Source: Nitrososphaerota archaeon (GTDB lineage: Archaea > Thermoproteota > Nitrososphaeria > Nitrososphaerales > Nitrosopumilaceae). Taken from it: a stretch of DNA of 48,293 nt. This document shows, piece after piece, positions 1 through 45,853 of the stretch. Location of the stretch: assembly GCA_028867735.1 (NCBI GenBank), contig JAGWFW010000006.1, positions 1 through 48,293 of the forward strand. The letters are read 5' to 3'. Numbering within the stretch: position 1 is the stretch's first letter; each line of letters starts with the position of its first letter. Position numbers and translations under genes: made by a program. The notes under the pieces are model-generated. The model had not been told where the DNA came from. It did not search any database and worked only from the letters and a program-made list of their open reading frames with translations.

Positions 1-99
1 GAGGCCTGTGAATCATGCGATGGTACAACACCAAGTGTCATCACAAGCGCCGCCTTGCTGTTACGTATGCAAACAGGTGATCAAAGCGAAACAATATAA
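1..99 (+). CDS. C-terminal end of an unidentified protein (5' cut by window edge)
   Basis: The first forward frame is open from base 1 to a TAA at 97-99 and encodes 32 residues (begins [15 protein letters not shown], ends GDQSETI). The composition looks protein-like and the frame ends just before the next gene on the same strand, so it is probably the tail of an upstream gene. Two cysteines in the visible tail are not enough to name a family. Confidence 0.45.
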
Positions 100-172
100 A
101 TCATGCACAAATATGGCCCAAAAACTGCATTTTTTGCGATCGCTAATATTGGTCTTGGGTGTAGTTTGCTCA

Positions 173-5679: not shown

Positions 5680-5744
5680 TGTCATGATGTTTGAGCTTAT
5701 GCAATGAGCTAGGTCTTATCTTGACGATTTTTGTTACATCACAA

Positions 5745-6569
5745 GTGACAGTAAGAGAGCATTACATTACAGTCGATGGCAACAAGATAAGATACCTGGA
5801 AGACGGCAGCGGCCCACATGTCATTCTGATACATGGGCTTGGAAGCCAGGCGGACAGGTGGTCAAGTGTAATACCTCACCTAAGCAAGGATCACCACGTC
5901 ATAGCGCCGGACCTGATAGGGTTTGGATATAGCGACAAGCCGTCTGTTGACTACACGCCAAAATATTTTGTAAAATTCATCTTTGATTTTTTGGAGGGAC
6001 TTGGCATCAAAAAGACAGTCATGATAGGCTCGTCCCTCGGGGGTCAGATTGTTGCCGAGTCTGCAGCAGCCCTTGACGACAGAGAAATAATTCAGAAGAT
6101 AGTGCTTGTATCACCCACGGGTACAATGCGCACGACAAATCCCACCCTTGATGCATACATAATGGCCGGTCTCTATCCGCAGCATGACTTGATCAAGACA
6201 GCATACCAGATGATGTCAGGCAGGCAAAAACATGTCGAGGAATCCACCATTGCAAGGTTTCGAGACGGCATGTCCAGGCCAAACGCAAAGATGGCGTTTC
6301 TTTCTTCGGTGATAAGTTTCAAGCACTGGCCTGCAATAACCCGGAGGCTGCAGCTCATCCCTATACCGGCTCTTGTCATTTGGGGAAGGGAGGACGCCAT
6401 GATTCCAATCAGTTTTGCAGACGACTATGTGTCAAATCTGAAAAACTGCAAGTTTGTTGTAATGGAGGGATGCGGTCACAGACCGCATGTGGAAGAACCT
6501 GAAAAACTTGTTGATACGATAATCAGGTTCCTAGGGAACAAGATGCACGTTAAACAATCAGTGGCATAG
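5745..6569 (+). CDS. Alpha/beta-hydrolase fold enzyme
   Basis: A 274-residue serine hydrolase with a full triad: oxyanion segment LIHGLGSQADRW, nucleophile elbow IGSSLGGQ, acid in VIWGREDAMIP and His in GCGHRPHVEEPE. The family includes esterases, C-C hydrolases and haloperoxidase-like enzymes; the substrate is unknown. The frame is open up to a TTG at 5691, but the segment before the GTG at 5745 is not typical of the fold, and MTVREHYITVDGNKIRYLEDG is, so GTG 5745 is chosen. No partner suggests a pathway. Confidence 0.85.
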   Translation: MTVREHYITVDGNKIRYLEDGSGPHVILIHGLGSQADRWSSVIPHLSKDHHVIAPDLIGFGYSDKPSVDYTPKYFVKFIFDFLEGLGIKKTVMIGSSLGGQIVAESAAALDDREIIQKIVLVSPTGTMRTTNPTLDAYIMAGLYPQHDLIKTAYQMMSGRQKHVEESTIARFRDGMSRPNAKMAFLSSVISFKHWPAITRRLQLIPIPALVIWGREDAMIPISFADDYVSNLKNCKFVVMEGCGHRPHVEEPEKLVDTIIRFLGNKMHVKQSVA

Positions 6570-7698: not shown

Positions 7699-7774
7699 TG
7701 ATCAGAGCTTTTTGGGTTTTATATTAATCTGCTTTTTTCGGGTTCTGTGTAGTCCTCGTCGGAATTTTTCACTG

Positions 7775-8368
7775 TCAAAAACCGTCGGGTGGCGTTAGTG
7801 GAGGTATAAACCAGTGAACAAAATCAGGTGTGAAAACTCCAAGACCATAGAGGATCAACGGTATTGCCGTACTTGTGAGAAGTATTCCTGCAATCAATCT
7901 TGTTATTCTTAATGGCACTTTCTTGACAACTCCTAACCACAATAAACTAATGATAAGACCAATAGCAACAGCAAATCCTATCAATGCACTTTCTAACTGT
8001 ATCAAACTGAATGTAGCCAACGCAACAGAGTTTTCCACTGCTTCAATCATTGCAATGTAAAAGTAAGTTATTTTGTATTTGGTTGCATCAACTTTGGTTT
8101 CATTCTCAAAAAATTCTTTGAACATAAGACCGCTAAAAAACAATAACCCAATACCTAAAGCAATTTCGAGGATATCTGTAGGAACAAAACCTGCGTATTT
8201 TAAAAAAATAAAATACAATATGATTCCAACTGCAAAACCAAATGCCGTAATCTTGAGAGTTTTTCGTAATCCGATTCTACTTGTTACACCTATGCCAACT
8301 AATGCCTGCTCTCCACCTTCAACAAAGATGTACTTGAATGAAGTGAAAAACACAATTAGTTCAAACAC
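7775..8368 (-). CDS. Six-helix membrane protein, FTR1-like acidic repeats
   Basis: A 197-residue integral membrane protein with about six hydrophobic segments in two halves of three. Each half begins with a helix carrying closely spaced acids: FVEGGEQALVG (about residues 16-26) and MIEAVENSVALA (about 107-118). This resembles the RExxE-bearing repeat helices of FTR1/OFeT iron permeases and related cation carriers, but the arginine is missing, so metal transport is a guess. It starts with GTG at 8368, nine bases after the stop of a zinc-ribbon gene, so the two are co-transcribed. Confidence 0.6.
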   Translation of the reverse strand: MFELIVFFTSFKYIFVEGGEQALVGIGVTSRIGLRKTLKITAFGFAVGIILYFIFLKYAGFVPTDILEIALGIGLLFFSGLMFKEFFENETKVDATKYKITYFYIAMIEAVENSVALATFSLIQLESALIGFAVAIGLIISLLWLGVVKKVPLRITRLIAGILLTSTAIPLILYGLGVFTPDFVHWFIPPLTPPDGF

Positions 8369-8377
8369 AAATCATGA

Positions 8378-8527
8378 TTAACTATCATCAATATTAAACC
8401 AGAGATTCTTTGGTTTCCAATACTCTCTAACTTTATTTTCACAATCATCACACCATTGATACTTTATTTTGTAATCATAGTCAGTATTCATTCGAACTTT
8501 ACACAAAGGACATTCATGAATTGTCAT
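8378..8527 (-). CDS. Small zinc-ribbon protein (49 aa)
   Basis: A 49-codon gene from ATG 8527 to TAA 8380-8378. It holds two CxxC pairs, HECPLCKVRMN and QWCDDCENKVRE, spaced as in a rubredoxin-like zinc ribbon. The downstream membrane protein starts nine bases after its stop. A role as a metal sensor or accessory to the transporter is inference from linkage only. Confidence 0.6.
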   Translation of the reverse strand: MTIHECPLCKVRMNTDYDYKIKYQWCDDCENKVREYWKPKNLWFNIDDS

Positions 8528-8563
8528 ACCCCTCTCCTGACAGGGTTTGAATCAAAGTCCAGA

Positions 8564-8731
8564 CTAGACAGAATCTTTTTTCGTGTCATTGCCATCAGAG
8601 TCTTGTTTTTTTGCATCCTTTGGCATCCACAGTCTTGCAACGGCTCCCATCATGAATCCACCCACAACAACTATTGCGATTCCGCTGATTATCAGAACAA
8701 TTACTTTAGCAACAGACTTGAAAGAGGCCAT
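8564..8731 (-). CDS. Single-helix membrane protein (55 aa)
   Basis: A 55-codon frame from ATG 8731 to TAG 8566-8564. It has one membrane helix (about residues 8-32, VIVLIISGIAIVVVGGFMMG) and a charged C-terminal tail ending KKQDSDGNDTKKDSV. Small one-helix proteins of this kind are common in thaumarchaea; no function can be given. It lies between the zinc-ribbon gene and a broken SRPBCC gene, all on the same strand. Confidence 0.5.
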   Translation of the reverse strand: MASFKSVAKVIVLIISGIAIVVVGGFMMGAVARLWMPKDAKKQDSDGNDTKKDSV

Positions 8732-8802
8732 GTATTAGATAGCTTTTCTCCGGTTAAATACGGATTGGTAAGACACGACAAATCATGCAGTTCTCTGCAC
8801 CC

Positions 8803-9237
8803 TTATTGCGAACTTTCCGCCACTTTGCCAAACTGTTCGATTACTTCTTCTATGCTTTTTTCTATCTTCCCTTTTGCCATAATCCAACCAGTTTTAGCTT
8901 TTCCTGCTAAGCTTAAAATCGCCTTCAACCGTGATCTTTGTCCCTCCAGGAACCGTGGTGTACGTGGTAATTATGTGGCTGCCTTTTGCGTCACCCGAGA
9001 GAAGATGTACATAGTCTATCTCAGGCGGAGTCAGTACATGCTTTGTTGTCTGGTGCATTTTCCTTCCTGCCATGATAGCATGATCTTCGCTGATTATCGT
9101 ATTGCCATCCCTTGACATGATTTGATTGATTTGAAAAACTGGGGAAGTCTGTTTGATAAGCTTTCAAAATCTATCACCGATTGGAAAATCTTTTCTCTGT
9201 TTGCTTTGATTATTTTTTCAACCTTTATTTTTGGCAT
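8803..9237 (-). pseudogene. SRPBCC (START/polyketide-cyclase fold) gene with two compensating frameshifts
   Basis: Three reading segments together make one ~144-residue SRPBCC protein. Frame 0 from ATG 9237 encodes MPKIKVEKIIKANREKIFQS...NRLPQFS. A second frame, from about 9140 to 8924, encodes ISEDHAIMAGRKMHQTTKHV and GGTKITVEGDFKL. Frame 0 again, from about 8923 to TAA 8805-8803, encodes LAGKAKTGWIMAKGKIEKSI. The first shift is -1 (or +2) and the second +1, so the frame is restored. Without the shifts, the middle frame stops at 8896-8894 and frame 0 stops near 9008. Either the gene is decaying or the sequence has two indel errors. SRPBCC proteins bind hydrophobic ligands. A TTTTAAT box lies about 27 bases upstream of ATG 9237. 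Confidence 0.7.
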
Positions 9238-9287
9238 GTTTTTTCAATGGTTTTCCAGAATTAAAAGACGTGATTTGAAATCACTTG

Positions 9288-9295
9288 CTTTAAAT
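9288..9295 (+). promoter_or_regulatory. TATA box of the LEA14-like membrane protein gene
   Basis: CTTTAAAT is centred 27 bases before ATG 9319. It favours this ATG over the in-frame TTG at 9295. Confidence 0.5.
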
Positions 9296-9318
9296 TGAGT
9301 GGATCGGATTTCAACGCA

Positions 9319-10104
9319 ATGTCAGACGATGCAATCAATCTGGTTCAATCATTCATTGATTCCAAAAAAGGAGACACTAACAGATTGCAGGAGATTCTCA
9401 TCAAGTTGCAGCAAGGAAATTCTCTTGATGCCTCTGATCAAAGTTATTTGGATGAGATTATAAAAGAAGTACAGGCAGCAGAGCAAACACCTTCCGAGAC
9501 TTTGGAACATCCAAATTCCGAGATTTTGGAACACCCTGATTTCTCGGAGCAACAGAATGTGGAACACGAGTCCCTTGATGACGCTGTCATTCGCGAAACT
9601 AGAAACTCGCCGTCAAGAAAAAGAGTCATAGCAATATCGGCCGTAATTGTCTCAATAGTGGTGGCATATGTAGGACTTGATGTTTATTCTGTTGGCACGC
9701 TGCAGTTCAGGCCAGTGCAGGGAAACCAGTATCAGATATCGCCAACAGAGATTCACATACGGGCAGCCGTCTGCAATCCCTCGTTCTTTCCCGTAACTTT
9801 TAACAAATATGAGATAAGCGCCTTTTACGATTCAGAGCCAATAGAAAAAGCCGAAATAAATGGCAGCACGGTCTCACCCAAGACAGCATCCGTGGTAGAG
9901 GGTATATTTGTGCTAAATGCGGACAGCATACTCAAACTAAAAGAAAAAAACGCAACGTTTGATCCTACGCTGGCAAAAATTACTACAACGGTTGACGCTC
10001 CAATATTCGGGGCAATTCCTTTCTCTGTAGTAAAACAGTATTCCGCAGAGCAATTCCAGGATGTGCTCAGAAATGGACCTCCCGGCGATTTCAGCTGCAG
10101 TTGA
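9319..10104 (+). CDS. Membrane-anchored LEA14/WHy-like protein with GKGDT-type N-terminal domain
   Basis: A 261-residue protein. Residues 1-55 form a short helical domain (MSDDAINLVQSFIDSKKGDT, then RLQEILIKLQQG) that is also the N-terminus of the SHOCT protein at 15859-16158. A Glu/Pro-rich linker with two LEHPNSEI/LEHPD-type repeats follows, then a transmembrane helix (about 105-125) and an extracellular domain with IHIRAAVCNPSFFPVTFNKYE, typical of LEA14/WHy folds found in stress and surface proteins. Orientation is inferred as N-in, C-out. It ends three bases from the convergent thioesterase gene. Confidence 0.65.
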   Translation: MSDDAINLVQSFIDSKKGDTNRLQEILIKLQQGNSLDASDQSYLDEIIKEVQAAEQTPSETLEHPNSEILEHPDFSEQQNVEHESLDDAVIRETRNSPSRKRVIAISAVIVSIVVAYVGLDVYSVGTLQFRPVQGNQYQISPTEIHIRAAVCNPSFFPVTFNKYEISAFYDSEPIEKAEINGSTVSPKTASVVEGIFVLNADSILKLKEKNATFDPTLAKITTTVDAPIFGAIPFSVVKQYSAEQFQDVLRNGPPGDFSCS

Positions 10105-16972: not shown

Positions 16973-17079
16973 TTTGATCTAGTGTTAATTATTACAGATA
17001 CTACAATTGAAGATTTAAGTTTACGGCAATCATGTGTTTTTCAATAGTCTAGATTACGTTCATTCTAGTCGTTTTAACA

Positions 17080-17619
17080 TCAAGTACGATCTTTATGTAA
17101 AAATTCAAAAACAATTACGCCGTCATGCTGTGATTCGTTTGCAATTATGATTTTTAGTGACTCTAGAATCGATTTTATATAATACTGAAGAAATATAGCC
17201 CATTTTTCACTTGGATCTGCAGAGAAAACTAGCCTATACCTGTTGCTGTGCACTTTGCACGTAAACTCAAACCATTTGCAGTATTTTCCTATTACCATAA
17301 AATAATTGTGAATAACATGATCTATGTCATACTGCATACCTAAGATATTGAATAGCTTTTTGACAATTCCGGGCCCTTTTTGAGCAAGTTCTTTCATGTC
17401 ATCTTCATTCAGTTTGGCCACGATTAAAAGAAAGAAATCATACGGAAGTACCACGTTTAGAATTGCATTTACGTTTTCTTCGTAGGTGATATTTTTGTTT
17501 AGAACTTTGTTGATAAATGCATTGAGTGTCAGGTCTTTTTTATCAGCTTCACGTTTTAGAATCTCCAGTACATCATTTTGCAATCTCAGAGTTATTCTAT
17601 TGGTCGGTGTTCGCTCCAT
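17080..17619 (-). CDS. Ribbon-helix-helix protein with novel C-terminal domain (copy 2)
   Basis: A 179-residue paralogue of the gene at 1601-2179. The RHH unit is TNRITLRLQNDVLEILKREA, continuing DKKDLTLNAFINK. The C-terminal domain shares NYFMVIGKYCKWFEF, YIKSILESLKIIIANES and the final VIVFEF with copy 1. Identity is spread over the full length, so this is a duplicated two-domain family rather than shared RHH alone. A GTG at 17634 could add five residues, but ATG 17619 has TTTAAAATGG about 27 bases upstream. A regulatory role is inferred. Confidence 0.72.
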   Translation of the reverse strand: MERTPTNRITLRLQNDVLEILKREADKKDLTLNAFINKVLNKNITYEENVNAILNVVLPYDFFLLIVAKLNEDDMKELAQKGPGIVKKLFNILGMQYDIDHVIHNYFMVIGKYCKWFEFTCKVHSNRYRLVFSADPSEKWAIFLQYYIKSILESLKIIIANESQHDGVIVFEFLHKDRT

Positions 17620-17733
17620 GCTTGAAATCGTCACAAAATCACCATTTTAAAAAAAAACAGTTATTTCATGAATATTAAAAATTACGTAGGAATGTTTAGT
17701 TTTACATCAGATTAGGGTTTAACAAGTAGGAAA

Positions 17734-29802: not shown

Positions 29803-30429
29803 ATGAAAAAACTTGCAGCCATAACATTTGTCATAGTGTCAATAATGGGTCTCAGTTACGCCGGCATGTCTTATGGAACCACTCAAGTCTCAATTGCTAC
29901 AAGTAAGCCCGTTTACAGATACGGTGATAGCCTTTCATTTTCAGTCACAGTATCCAACGTTACGGGAGACATGGCAGTTTTGGAGATAGTGGACCAATCA
30001 AACCAGTCGTCATCCCCCATTAACATGGCAATTGCCAAATCCGTATCAAATATCACTGCCCCGTTTCCATTTTATAGAACAACTTTTTCCCCCGGTACTT
30101 ATTTTGTCAAGATTCAGTATGCCGGAGCCAACGCAACCACAAGCTTTCAACTGGTAGACACTGGAGACATTACAATCCCTCCACAATTCAAAGAGGTAGC
30201 AAGTTCCTGGGTTCAGAACCAGACATCCGATAGGTTGTTTGGAGAACACATTGCCGAGCTTGTCAATTCAGGCACAATCAAGATAGATGGATATCGTGAG
30301 CAAAACGTGACGTCCATACCCTCATGGTTCAGAAATGACGCATTATGGTGGTCAAACGGTTCCATATCAGACAATGATTTTGGACATGCAATAGAGTATC
30401 TCATTGAGCACAGCATAATGAAAGTCTAG
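29803..30429 (+). CDS. Secreted protein with tandem 37-residue thaumarchaeal repeats
   Basis: A 208-residue exported protein: signal peptide (MKKLAAITFVIVSIMGLSYA), an Ig-like beta domain (about 27-120, KPVYRYGDSLSFSVTVSNVT), then two related 37-residue units at 125-161 (IPPQFKEVASSWVQN...) and 172-208 (IPSWFRNDALWWSNG...). Both share Ile-Pro, Phe, Ala-x-x-Trp, Ser-Asp, Phe-Gly, Ile-x-x-Leu and Lys-(Ile/Val). The second form is a widespread domain of thaumarchaeal secreted proteins. Its role is unknown; cell-surface binding is plausible. Confidence 0.72.
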   Translation: MKKLAAITFVIVSIMGLSYAGMSYGTTQVSIATSKPVYRYGDSLSFSVTVSNVTGDMAVLEIVDQSNQSSSPINMAIAKSVSNITAPFPFYRTTFSPGTYFVKIQYAGANATTSFQLVDTGDITIPPQFKEVASSWVQNQTSDRLFGEHIAELVNSGTIKIDGYREQNVTSIPSWFRNDALWWSNGSISDNDFGHAIEYLIEHSIMKV

Positions 30430-43100: not shown

Positions 43101-44177
43101 TCAAGGCATATTAACTTGAGATATTTCTGGTAGGTGTTTTTCTTCCAACACTTGGTTTAGAATATTTAAATCAAATATTCCTCCAAGATCTGGTTTTGAA
43201 TCACCCAGAAATCCCAATCCATATGCAGCATCTGCAGACTTGTAAAGAGAGTCTTGGAGCGGATCGTATGTGACATCCATTCTTGAGAAGGCCTCTTTTA
43301 GTTCATTCTCAGGAAATGTCTTTCCTGTCAAATTTCCCAATTGCTCATTGAATATTGCAATTGCTTTTTCTTTGTTGTCGTTTATCCACAAGGTTTCATT
43401 TACATGCGCTTCAAGTAATTTCTTTATAATGTCAGGATGATTTTGCAGGTAATCAGATCGTACAGCGACAAGCGCTGTCGTAAATTTTCCTCCTGTCCAC
43501 AAGTTTCTTTCATCAACTAGAATTTTTCCATTGGCCTCATGTTCTATTTTAGTTCCCCATGGCTCTGGAACCCATGCACCGTCAATGTCTTTTTTTAGCA
43601 TCAGGGTAACAATGTCGGCGTTTGCAGCGTTTATGACTTGGATATTTCCCCCATTGTCCGAAGTTTTGTACCCGTTTTTGTTCAGAAATGACCTCAATGC
43701 AACATCTTGCGTATTACCAAGCTGAGGTGAGGCAAATTTCTTATCTCCAAGATCAGCAACAGAGTTTATGCCAGAATCATTTCTTACCACAAACACTACA
43801 CCACCGCTTGCGGCACCTGCAATTATACGTAGACCTTGACCGTCAGATTTTATGTATCCGTTTATGGCAGGATTAGGCCCAACATATGCGACGTCAATTC
43901 GGTTTCCAAAGAGGGCCTCTATTTCAGAAGGCCCTGAATTAAATATCTGTGTCTGCACATTTACCCCTCCAAGTTCTTTTTGATAATCCCCGGTCCCAAG
44001 TCCAATTACAGCTTGTGCGTGACTTATGTTTGGGAAATACCCTATTCGCAGTATGTCAGTCTGAGAATATCTTGTTGCATGAGTAGCACCTGTAGTTCCA
44101 GACACCGACACAAAGATAGCAACAACAACAGCTGCAATTATTGCACCAGCAATACCAAACTTTGCGACTGGATTCAT
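43101..44177 (-). CDS. ABC transporter substrate-binding protein, NitT/TauT (SsuA-like) family
   Basis: A 358-residue exported binding protein. An N-terminal hydrophobic anchor (about 5-28) is followed by the type II binding fold: LRIGYFPNISHAQAVIGLGT, NRIDVAYVGPNPAINGYI, DLGDKKFASPQLGNTQDVAL and DGAWVPEPWGTKIEHEANGK. The family handles nitrate, sulphonates, taurine, bicarbonate or thiamine precursors; the ligand cannot be read here. There is no lipobox Cys. ATG 44177 is preceded by a strong AGGGGTGA ribosome site, so it is translated from the operon mRNA with the permease. Confidence 0.88.
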   Translation of the reverse strand: MNPVAKFGIAGAIIAAVVVAIFVSVSGTTGATHATRYSQTDILRIGYFPNISHAQAVIGLGTGDYQKELGGVNVQTQIFNSGPSEIEALFGNRIDVAYVGPNPAINGYIKSDGQGLRIIAGAASGGVVFVVRNDSGINSVADLGDKKFASPQLGNTQDVALRSFLNKNGYKTSDNGGNIQVINAANADIVTLMLKKDIDGAWVPEPWGTKIEHEANGKILVDERNLWTGGKFTTALVAVRSDYLQNHPDIIKKLLEAHVNETLWINDNKEKAIAIFNEQLGNLTGKTFPENELKEAFSRMDVTYDPLQDSLYKSADAAYGLGFLGDSKPDLGGIFDLNILNQVLEEKHLPEISQVNMP

Positions 44178-44206
44178 TCTACAAATCACCCCTCAAAACA
44201 TTCTGT

Positions 44207-45007
44207 TTAGCGATGATGATCAAGTCCCCATTTTTTTCGTATTTTGGCTTCTAATTTATAGAGCAGAAACCTATCTACAATCAGACCTATTGTAAATATC
44301 GTTATCATGCTGGTGATCACCTCTCCCATGTCAAGAAAGTCTCTTCCTACAGAAAGTATGTGTCCCAAGCCTACAATCGACATCAGTATTTCAGCACCAA
44401 TTATTGCGTGCCATGCAAATGACCATCCCTGTCTTAACCCAATAATCAACGATGGGGTTGCTGCAGGCAGTGTAACGTATCTGAACAGGGAAAATCCTCT
44501 CGCCCCCATGTTTTTTGCTGCATCAATGTAGATTGGCGGTATGTTCCTTATGCTACTGTACGTTGAGATCATTACAGAAAAGATTGAACTCATTATTACT
44601 ACAAACATGATACCAAATTCGTTAAACCCTATCAAGAGAATGGAAAACGGCACCCATGCTATACTCGGAAATGACAAAAGTCCTGCAGAAAATGAATTAA
44701 GAGTCTTGCCAAACCCCTTGAATCGAATCATTGCAAGTCCTATTAACGTACCAAGTCCTACCGATATTGCAAAAGATGCCACTAGTCGTCCAAGTGTTAC
44801 ACCCACGCCCTCAGGAAGTGAAAGATTCAGCATTAGTTTAACAAATGATTCTGCAACCATGGCAGGGGACGGCAGGGATATTTTGGGCCATATTCCAAGC
44901 ATGAAGACCAGTTGCCAAATGCCAACAAATATTGCCAAAAACAATGCAGCGTTTGCCGCATCATGAAGGCTTTGAGATCTTTTTTCAGAGATGATTTTTT
45001 CACTCAT
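44207..45007 (-). CDS. ABC transporter permease, SsuC/TauC type
   Basis: A 266-residue inner-membrane permease with about six helices. The family-typical N-terminus is LFLAIFVGIWQLVFMLGIWP, and the EAA loop is IYIDAAKNMGARGFSLFRYVTLPAATPSL, the site that couples to the ATPase. Its start overlaps the ATPase stop by four bases (ATGA), giving tight coupling. The order ATPase-permease-binding protein differs from the usual binding-protein-first order. Confidence 0.92.
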   Translation of the reverse strand: MSEKIISEKRSQSLHDAANAALFLAIFVGIWQLVFMLGIWPKISLPSPAMVAESFVKLMLNLSLPEGVGVTLGRLVASFAISVGLGTLIGLAMIRFKGFGKTLNSFSAGLLSFPSIAWVPFSILLIGFNEFGIMFVVIMSSIFSVMISTYSSIRNIPPIYIDAAKNMGARGFSLFRYVTLPAATPSLIIGLRQGWSFAWHAIIGAEILMSIVGLGHILSVGRDFLDMGEVITSMITIFTIGLIVDRFLLYKLEAKIRKKWGLDHHR

Positions 45008-45780
45008 TGACTCTCATCTTTTATTTGTGCAATCACTTCGTTTTTGAGTTCTTCCACTATTTGGTGATAATATTTTTGTAGATTTTCATCTTCCATTAGC
45101 CTTGGCCTTCTGTAATCTATGGTAAACTCTTTTTTTATCTTGGAAGGCCTATTTTTAAAAACTACAACGCGATTGCCCAAAATAACAGATTCTGAGATGT
45201 TGTGTGTCACAAAGATAATTGTCTTTTTTGTCCTTTCCCAGATAAGCTGAAGTTCTACTAACAACAAGTCTCTTGTCTGAGAGTCAAGAGCTGCAAAAGG
45301 TTCGTCCATCAACAATATCTCAGGATCCATTGCAAGTGCTCGCGCAATTGCTACTCTTTGTTTCATTCCAGTAGACAATTGATACGTATATGAATCGGCA
45401 AACTTGGTGAGCTGCATCATGTCAAGATACCTCTGAGAGATCTGTCTGCGTTCTTCTTTTGGAATTCCAGCCATCTTTAATCCAAACTCAACGTTATCAA
45501 TTACTTTGAGCCACGGAAATAGCGCGCCTTCCTGAAATACCATTGTCCTGTCAGGTCCCGGAGTGGAGATTGATTTTCCGTTAAGCAGTATCTCCCCAGA
45601 GTCAGGAATTTCAAGGCCTGCCACAATATTTAGAAATGTAGACTTACCACATCCAGATGGGCCAACAATGCATAGAAAGTCGCCTTCCTGTACGTCCAGA
45701 TTTACCCCATCCAATGCAACAACAGAATTTCCATTATGATCAAAGTGTTTCACAATGTTTTTTGCCTGAAGTTTTGTCAT
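45004..45780 (-). CDS. ABC transporter ATPase, SsuB/TauB type
   Basis: A 258-residue ATP-binding subunit. Walker A is GPSGCGKST, the signature is LSTGMKQRVAIARALAMDPE (second signature Gly is Thr), Walker B is ILLMDEPFAALD, and the H-loop is IIFVTHNISESVILG. ATG 45780 is chosen because AAAGGAG lies about ten bases upstream; an in-frame upstream start at 45801 would hide that site. It is one of the few genes in the window with a clear leader and Shine-Dalgarno sequence as first gene of a unit. A palindrome lies further upstream. Confidence 0.93.
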   Translation of the reverse strand: MTKLQAKNIVKHFDHNGNSVVALDGVNLDVQEGDFLCIVGPSGCGKSTFLNIVAGLEIPDSGEILLNGKSISTPGPDRTMVFQEGALFPWLKVIDNVEFGLKMAGIPKEERRQISQRYLDMMQLTKFADSYTYQLSTGMKQRVAIARALAMDPEILLMDEPFAALDSQTRDLLLVELQLIWERTKKTIIFVTHNISESVILGNRVVVFKNRPSKIKKEFTIDYRRPRLMEDENLQKYYHQIVEELKNEVIAQIKDESQ

Positions 45781-45853
45781 TAGAAACCAGCTCCTTTCCA
45801 ATCTTTAGGACATGGATGATTCTGAGACATGCCCGCAACGGGAACCAGATTCA

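Follow-up and report, generated by a model that had tools for sequence, protein, structure and literature searches.

According to the passages of Antonov et al. (2013; PMC3711429) that concern them, frame transitions that carry no conserved motif and are confined to near relatives are classed as pseudogenes. Here we describe a gene of the SRPBCC superfamily, in pieces on the minus strand (9237..8803) of a 48,293-nucleotide stretch of archaeal DNA, hereafter the window. The closest described protein families are Polyketide_cyc2 (PF10604) and Polyketide_cyc (PF03364) of this superfamily: intact orthologues of the gene match both, whereas in the window copy no single frame covers all of the domain. 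The solved hypothetical protein TTHA0849 (2d4r) is a weak match (E 2e-4), and a literature search on SRPBCC proteins in ammonia-oxidizing archaea found no paper.

Segments and lesions of the SRPBCC gene

The identity of the gene comes from its intact counterparts. Two 143-residue proteins, the orthologue in the congener G026 and a second, intact homologue on contig C166 of G018 (the nearest relative compared), exceed the curated cut-offs for both families (for PF10604, 35.6 and 46.4 bits against a cut-off of 27.4), and the SRPBCC assignment of the original prediction is thereby borne out. The window fragments, searched one by one, have no Pfam match.

As had been predicted, the gene falls into three segments. 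The N-terminal segment (9122..9237, residues 1-47, within ORF 9237..9094) opens with the ATG at 9237 and reads in the ancestral frame. The middle segment (8918..9120, ORF 9118..8894) is shifted by the loss of one base at about 9121, and the C-terminal segment (8803..8879, ORF 8928..8803) regains the ancestral frame and retains the stop codon. Two compensating frameshifts had been proposed at the joints. The shifts are real; their number is not two, because alignment with the intact orthologues (143 residues) that four congeners have at this locus resolves the second one into three events: single-base insertions near 8917 and 8908, and the loss of one base near 8880. The copy therefore carries four one-base indels summing to zero, and the zone of the last three (8880..8917) holds a short stretch of 8-9 codons in the third frame. 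The net frame is indeed restored, yet the segments in between are mis-framed and none of the frames is open over the full length. The net-zero sum reads more naturally as coincidence than as repair.

The gene is flanked by a divergent gene with a weak LEA_2 match (9295..10104, plus strand) and by a small ORF of 55 aa (8564..8731, minus strand), and both served as markers of the locus across the genus. A deceptive ORF antisense to the N-terminal part had also been pointed out. It exists (9122..9298, plus strand), and we rejected it as a gene: it has no Pfam match, its similarity to the antisense strands of relatives (34-81% across pieces, those from G018 and G009 containing stops) needs no more than the sense gene to explain it, and it is a by-product of that gene.

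The locus in related genomes

We searched 61 genomes, comprising the window's own, 36 congeners and 24 from the same order, and found SRPBCC matches in 25 of them. Four congeners (G026, G009, G030 and G022) carry a 143-residue orthologue at the same site in collinear DNA. Alignment to intact homologues had been suggested as a check on the split gene, and all intact relatives proved to use one frame throughout. The orthologue of G018, on its contig C22, is broken as well, by lesions of its own: ACG replaces the start codon, and a single base is deleted at the position that corresponds to 9152. None of the indels of the window copy is present in it.

A different kind of damage is found in G029. 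There, the first ~91 residues are encoded close to the end of contig C106, and the N-terminal part of a TnpB-like protein comes after them. The C-terminal part of such a protein stands at the end of contig C90, beside the gene's last portion and the collinear flank. From these two contigs, the gene would appear to have been split by a TnpB-type element. We take the element's protein family to be TnpB; a full-length copy on G029:C80 matches Pfam Cas12f1-like_TNB. Such genes are multi-copy in the genus (G029:C106 and C90; G000:C193, C197 and C44), and three matches lie in the window's own genome, G000.

Elsewhere just remnants are left at the expected site, covering residues 8-42 in G024 and 107-129 in G011. 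A neighbour-gene match was found in 36 genomes, and 30 neighbour-gene loci were inspected. Both flanking markers are present at 17 of these: three loci are intact (G026, G009, G030), two are broken (the window and G018), two hold the remnants, and ten are without trace of the gene, which fits loss and original absence alike. Among the other 13, G022 is intact and G029 is split; at the remaining 11, neither the SRPBCC gene nor the second marker lies within the stretch covered.

Near the gene, the window carries a low-G+C stretch of ~830 bases (7744-8574) that is missing at this site in G018 and G026 and has a partial equivalent on G029 contig C90. It codes for a 197-aa membrane-like protein without a Pfam match, patchily distributed (13 of 61 genomes) with copies elsewhere that reach 85% identity, and for a 49-aa ORF whose zinc-finger match stays below threshold. 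We rejected decay through this insert, because G018 does not have it and its copy is broken all the same.

Lesion distribution, constraint and alternative readings

Three readings had been offered for the split gene: decay, sequence error and unusual recoding. Of these, the first alone finds support. Very probably, the window copy is a pseudogene that arose by decay, a reading to be taken with the limit that nearly all the genomes compared are draft assemblies. The copy has disabling lesions relative to intact orthologues at the same locus, and the constraint on its protein is relaxed.

That the real gene is intact, and that the metagenome-assembled genome is in error here through sequencing or assembly, is the alternative that survives best, and we still consider it quite improbable. 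The assembly is a draft (1.65 Mb in 266 contigs, 84.7% complete) and two of the four indels sit in runs of 3-4 equal bases, both of which favor error. However, errors of this kind should be spread over genes, and the frame-breaking gaps are concentrated in this one. Contig C22 of G018 is collinear with the whole window and 89% identical to it (41,664 of 46,668 aligned bases); across 50 ORFs compared between the two, the SRPBCC gene is the only one with frame-breaking gaps inside its conserved body. It has four in this alignment, of which one, two bases long, represents two events and another is G018's own. Seven more are spread over six other ORFs; four of these gaps are no further than 11 bases from one or the other end, one is at 161, upstream of its ORF's conserved start, and two are in the divergent N-terminus of 43101-44189. 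In four other ORFs an aligned G018 stop falls near an end (codons 11 of 135, 5 of 95, 315 of 321 and 3 of 363). Error is also hard to reconcile with an orthologue from a separate assembly that is broken by different lesions, and indel errors cannot produce excess amino-acid changes.

Other features of the window also came to light. Synonymous divergence from G018 rises to between 0.91 and saturation at 43101-45801 and to 1.14 at 29803-30429, against ~0.4 around them, which suggests gene replacement by recombination. At 17061-17617, over ORF 17080-17634, ~460 bases and smaller gaps are missing from G018. The first ~49 residues of ORF 8-1477 (window 8-160) are conserved in five relatives and match apart from the remaining ORF; they are probably a separate upstream feature. 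A tRNA search of the window found none.

Excess amino-acid change is seen when G026 is used as a third taxon, with codons 109-122 around the indel zone left out of the comparison. Non-synonymous divergence of the SRPBCC gene is 0.141 between the window and G018 and 0.124 between the window and G026, a ratio of 1.14; in 23 control genes the ratio is 0.09-0.58. These controls are sets of 18 and 5, one of an initial 24 (ORF 5691-6569) having been dropped for want of a G026 orthologue. The terminal branches of the window and G018 measure 0.080 and 0.061, where the 18 controls average 0.018 and 0.017, so that non-synonymous divergence is ~4 times that of neighbouring genes on both. In contrast, the G026-side branch is 0.044, under the control mean of 0.095. 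A low G026-side branch with high terminal branches implies that the protein was constrained earlier and that constraint was lost in both lineages. The dN/dS between the window and G018 is 0.21, against a median of 0.087 for the 50 ORFs (a set in which the spurious antisense ORF 8456-9115 stands in for the SRPBCC gene). As 0.21 is not neutral, constraint must have persisted for part of the time since the two split.

Direct counts of changes are less telling. Polarised ratios of synonymous to non-synonymous changes are 3:13 for the window, 5:8 for G018, 4:0 for G026 and 6:1 for G029. A stricter count of singletons gives 1:12 for the window, 3:13 for the intact G022 and 2:5 for the intact G009, and failed to separate broken from intact copies. 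Because intact G022 reaches 3:13, we base the argument for lost constraint on the three-taxon comparison.

Could the middle frame be a new, separate small protein of 74 aa? It is the longest open piece of the gene and starts with an ATG (9118) that aligned relatives do not have, but it spans no more of the SRPBCC domain than its middle, finds no Pfam match by itself, and lies in a gene with excess non-synonymous change, so that we give this idea hardly any credence. Programmed ribosomal frameshifting that joins the frames into one protein has in its favor the restored net frame and the retained stop codon, but it would need four shifts in ~144 codons, intact relatives read one frame, constraint is relaxed, and none of the four shift sites was found in the seven aligned relatives (G029 covering the first site only), which makes recoding exceedingly unlikely.

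A probable decay series at one locus

We favor decay, and envision it as follows. A helix-grip, Polyketide_cyc2-type SRPBCC gene was intact and under constraint earlier in this archaeal genus. On the lines of descent to the window and to G018 it became dispensable, perhaps because of other SRPBCC genes: the window's own genome has a distant one with an open frame (G000:C255, 28% identical), and G018 has its C166 homologue. Lesions accrued independently in the two, four one-base indels in the window, start-codon loss and a one-base deletion in G018. As the fragments would fall short of a full fold, we do not expect a functional SRPBCC protein; judging from the sequence, the window copy presumably yields no protein at all.

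A broader idea, to which we give a little less than even confidence, is that the gene has been lost repeatedly and in parallel across this thaumarchaeal genus. The cases behind it are the two indel pseudogenes, the TnpB-element insertion, the two remnants and the ten traceless two-flank loci. If true, it would suggest a common cause, in ecology or in physiology, for shedding a lipid- or hydrophobic-ligand-binding protein. In any event, the states of this locus form a graded series (intact, freshly broken, element-split, remnant and absent) that neatly illustrates how genes are lost in uncultured archaea. It also serves as a warning that a broken gene with its net frame preserved can be a case of simple decay and not of recoding.

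The window copy is an indel pseudogene in an uncultured thaumarchaeon and a member of this series. As far as the account of Antonov et al. (PMC3711429) extends, it resembles the prokaryotic indel pseudogenes grouped there as 'pseudogene clusters', in that its frame transitions are confined to near relatives and share no frameshift motif. It differs from those clusters in that the lesions are not the same in the two nearest species, and this difference points to independent decay.
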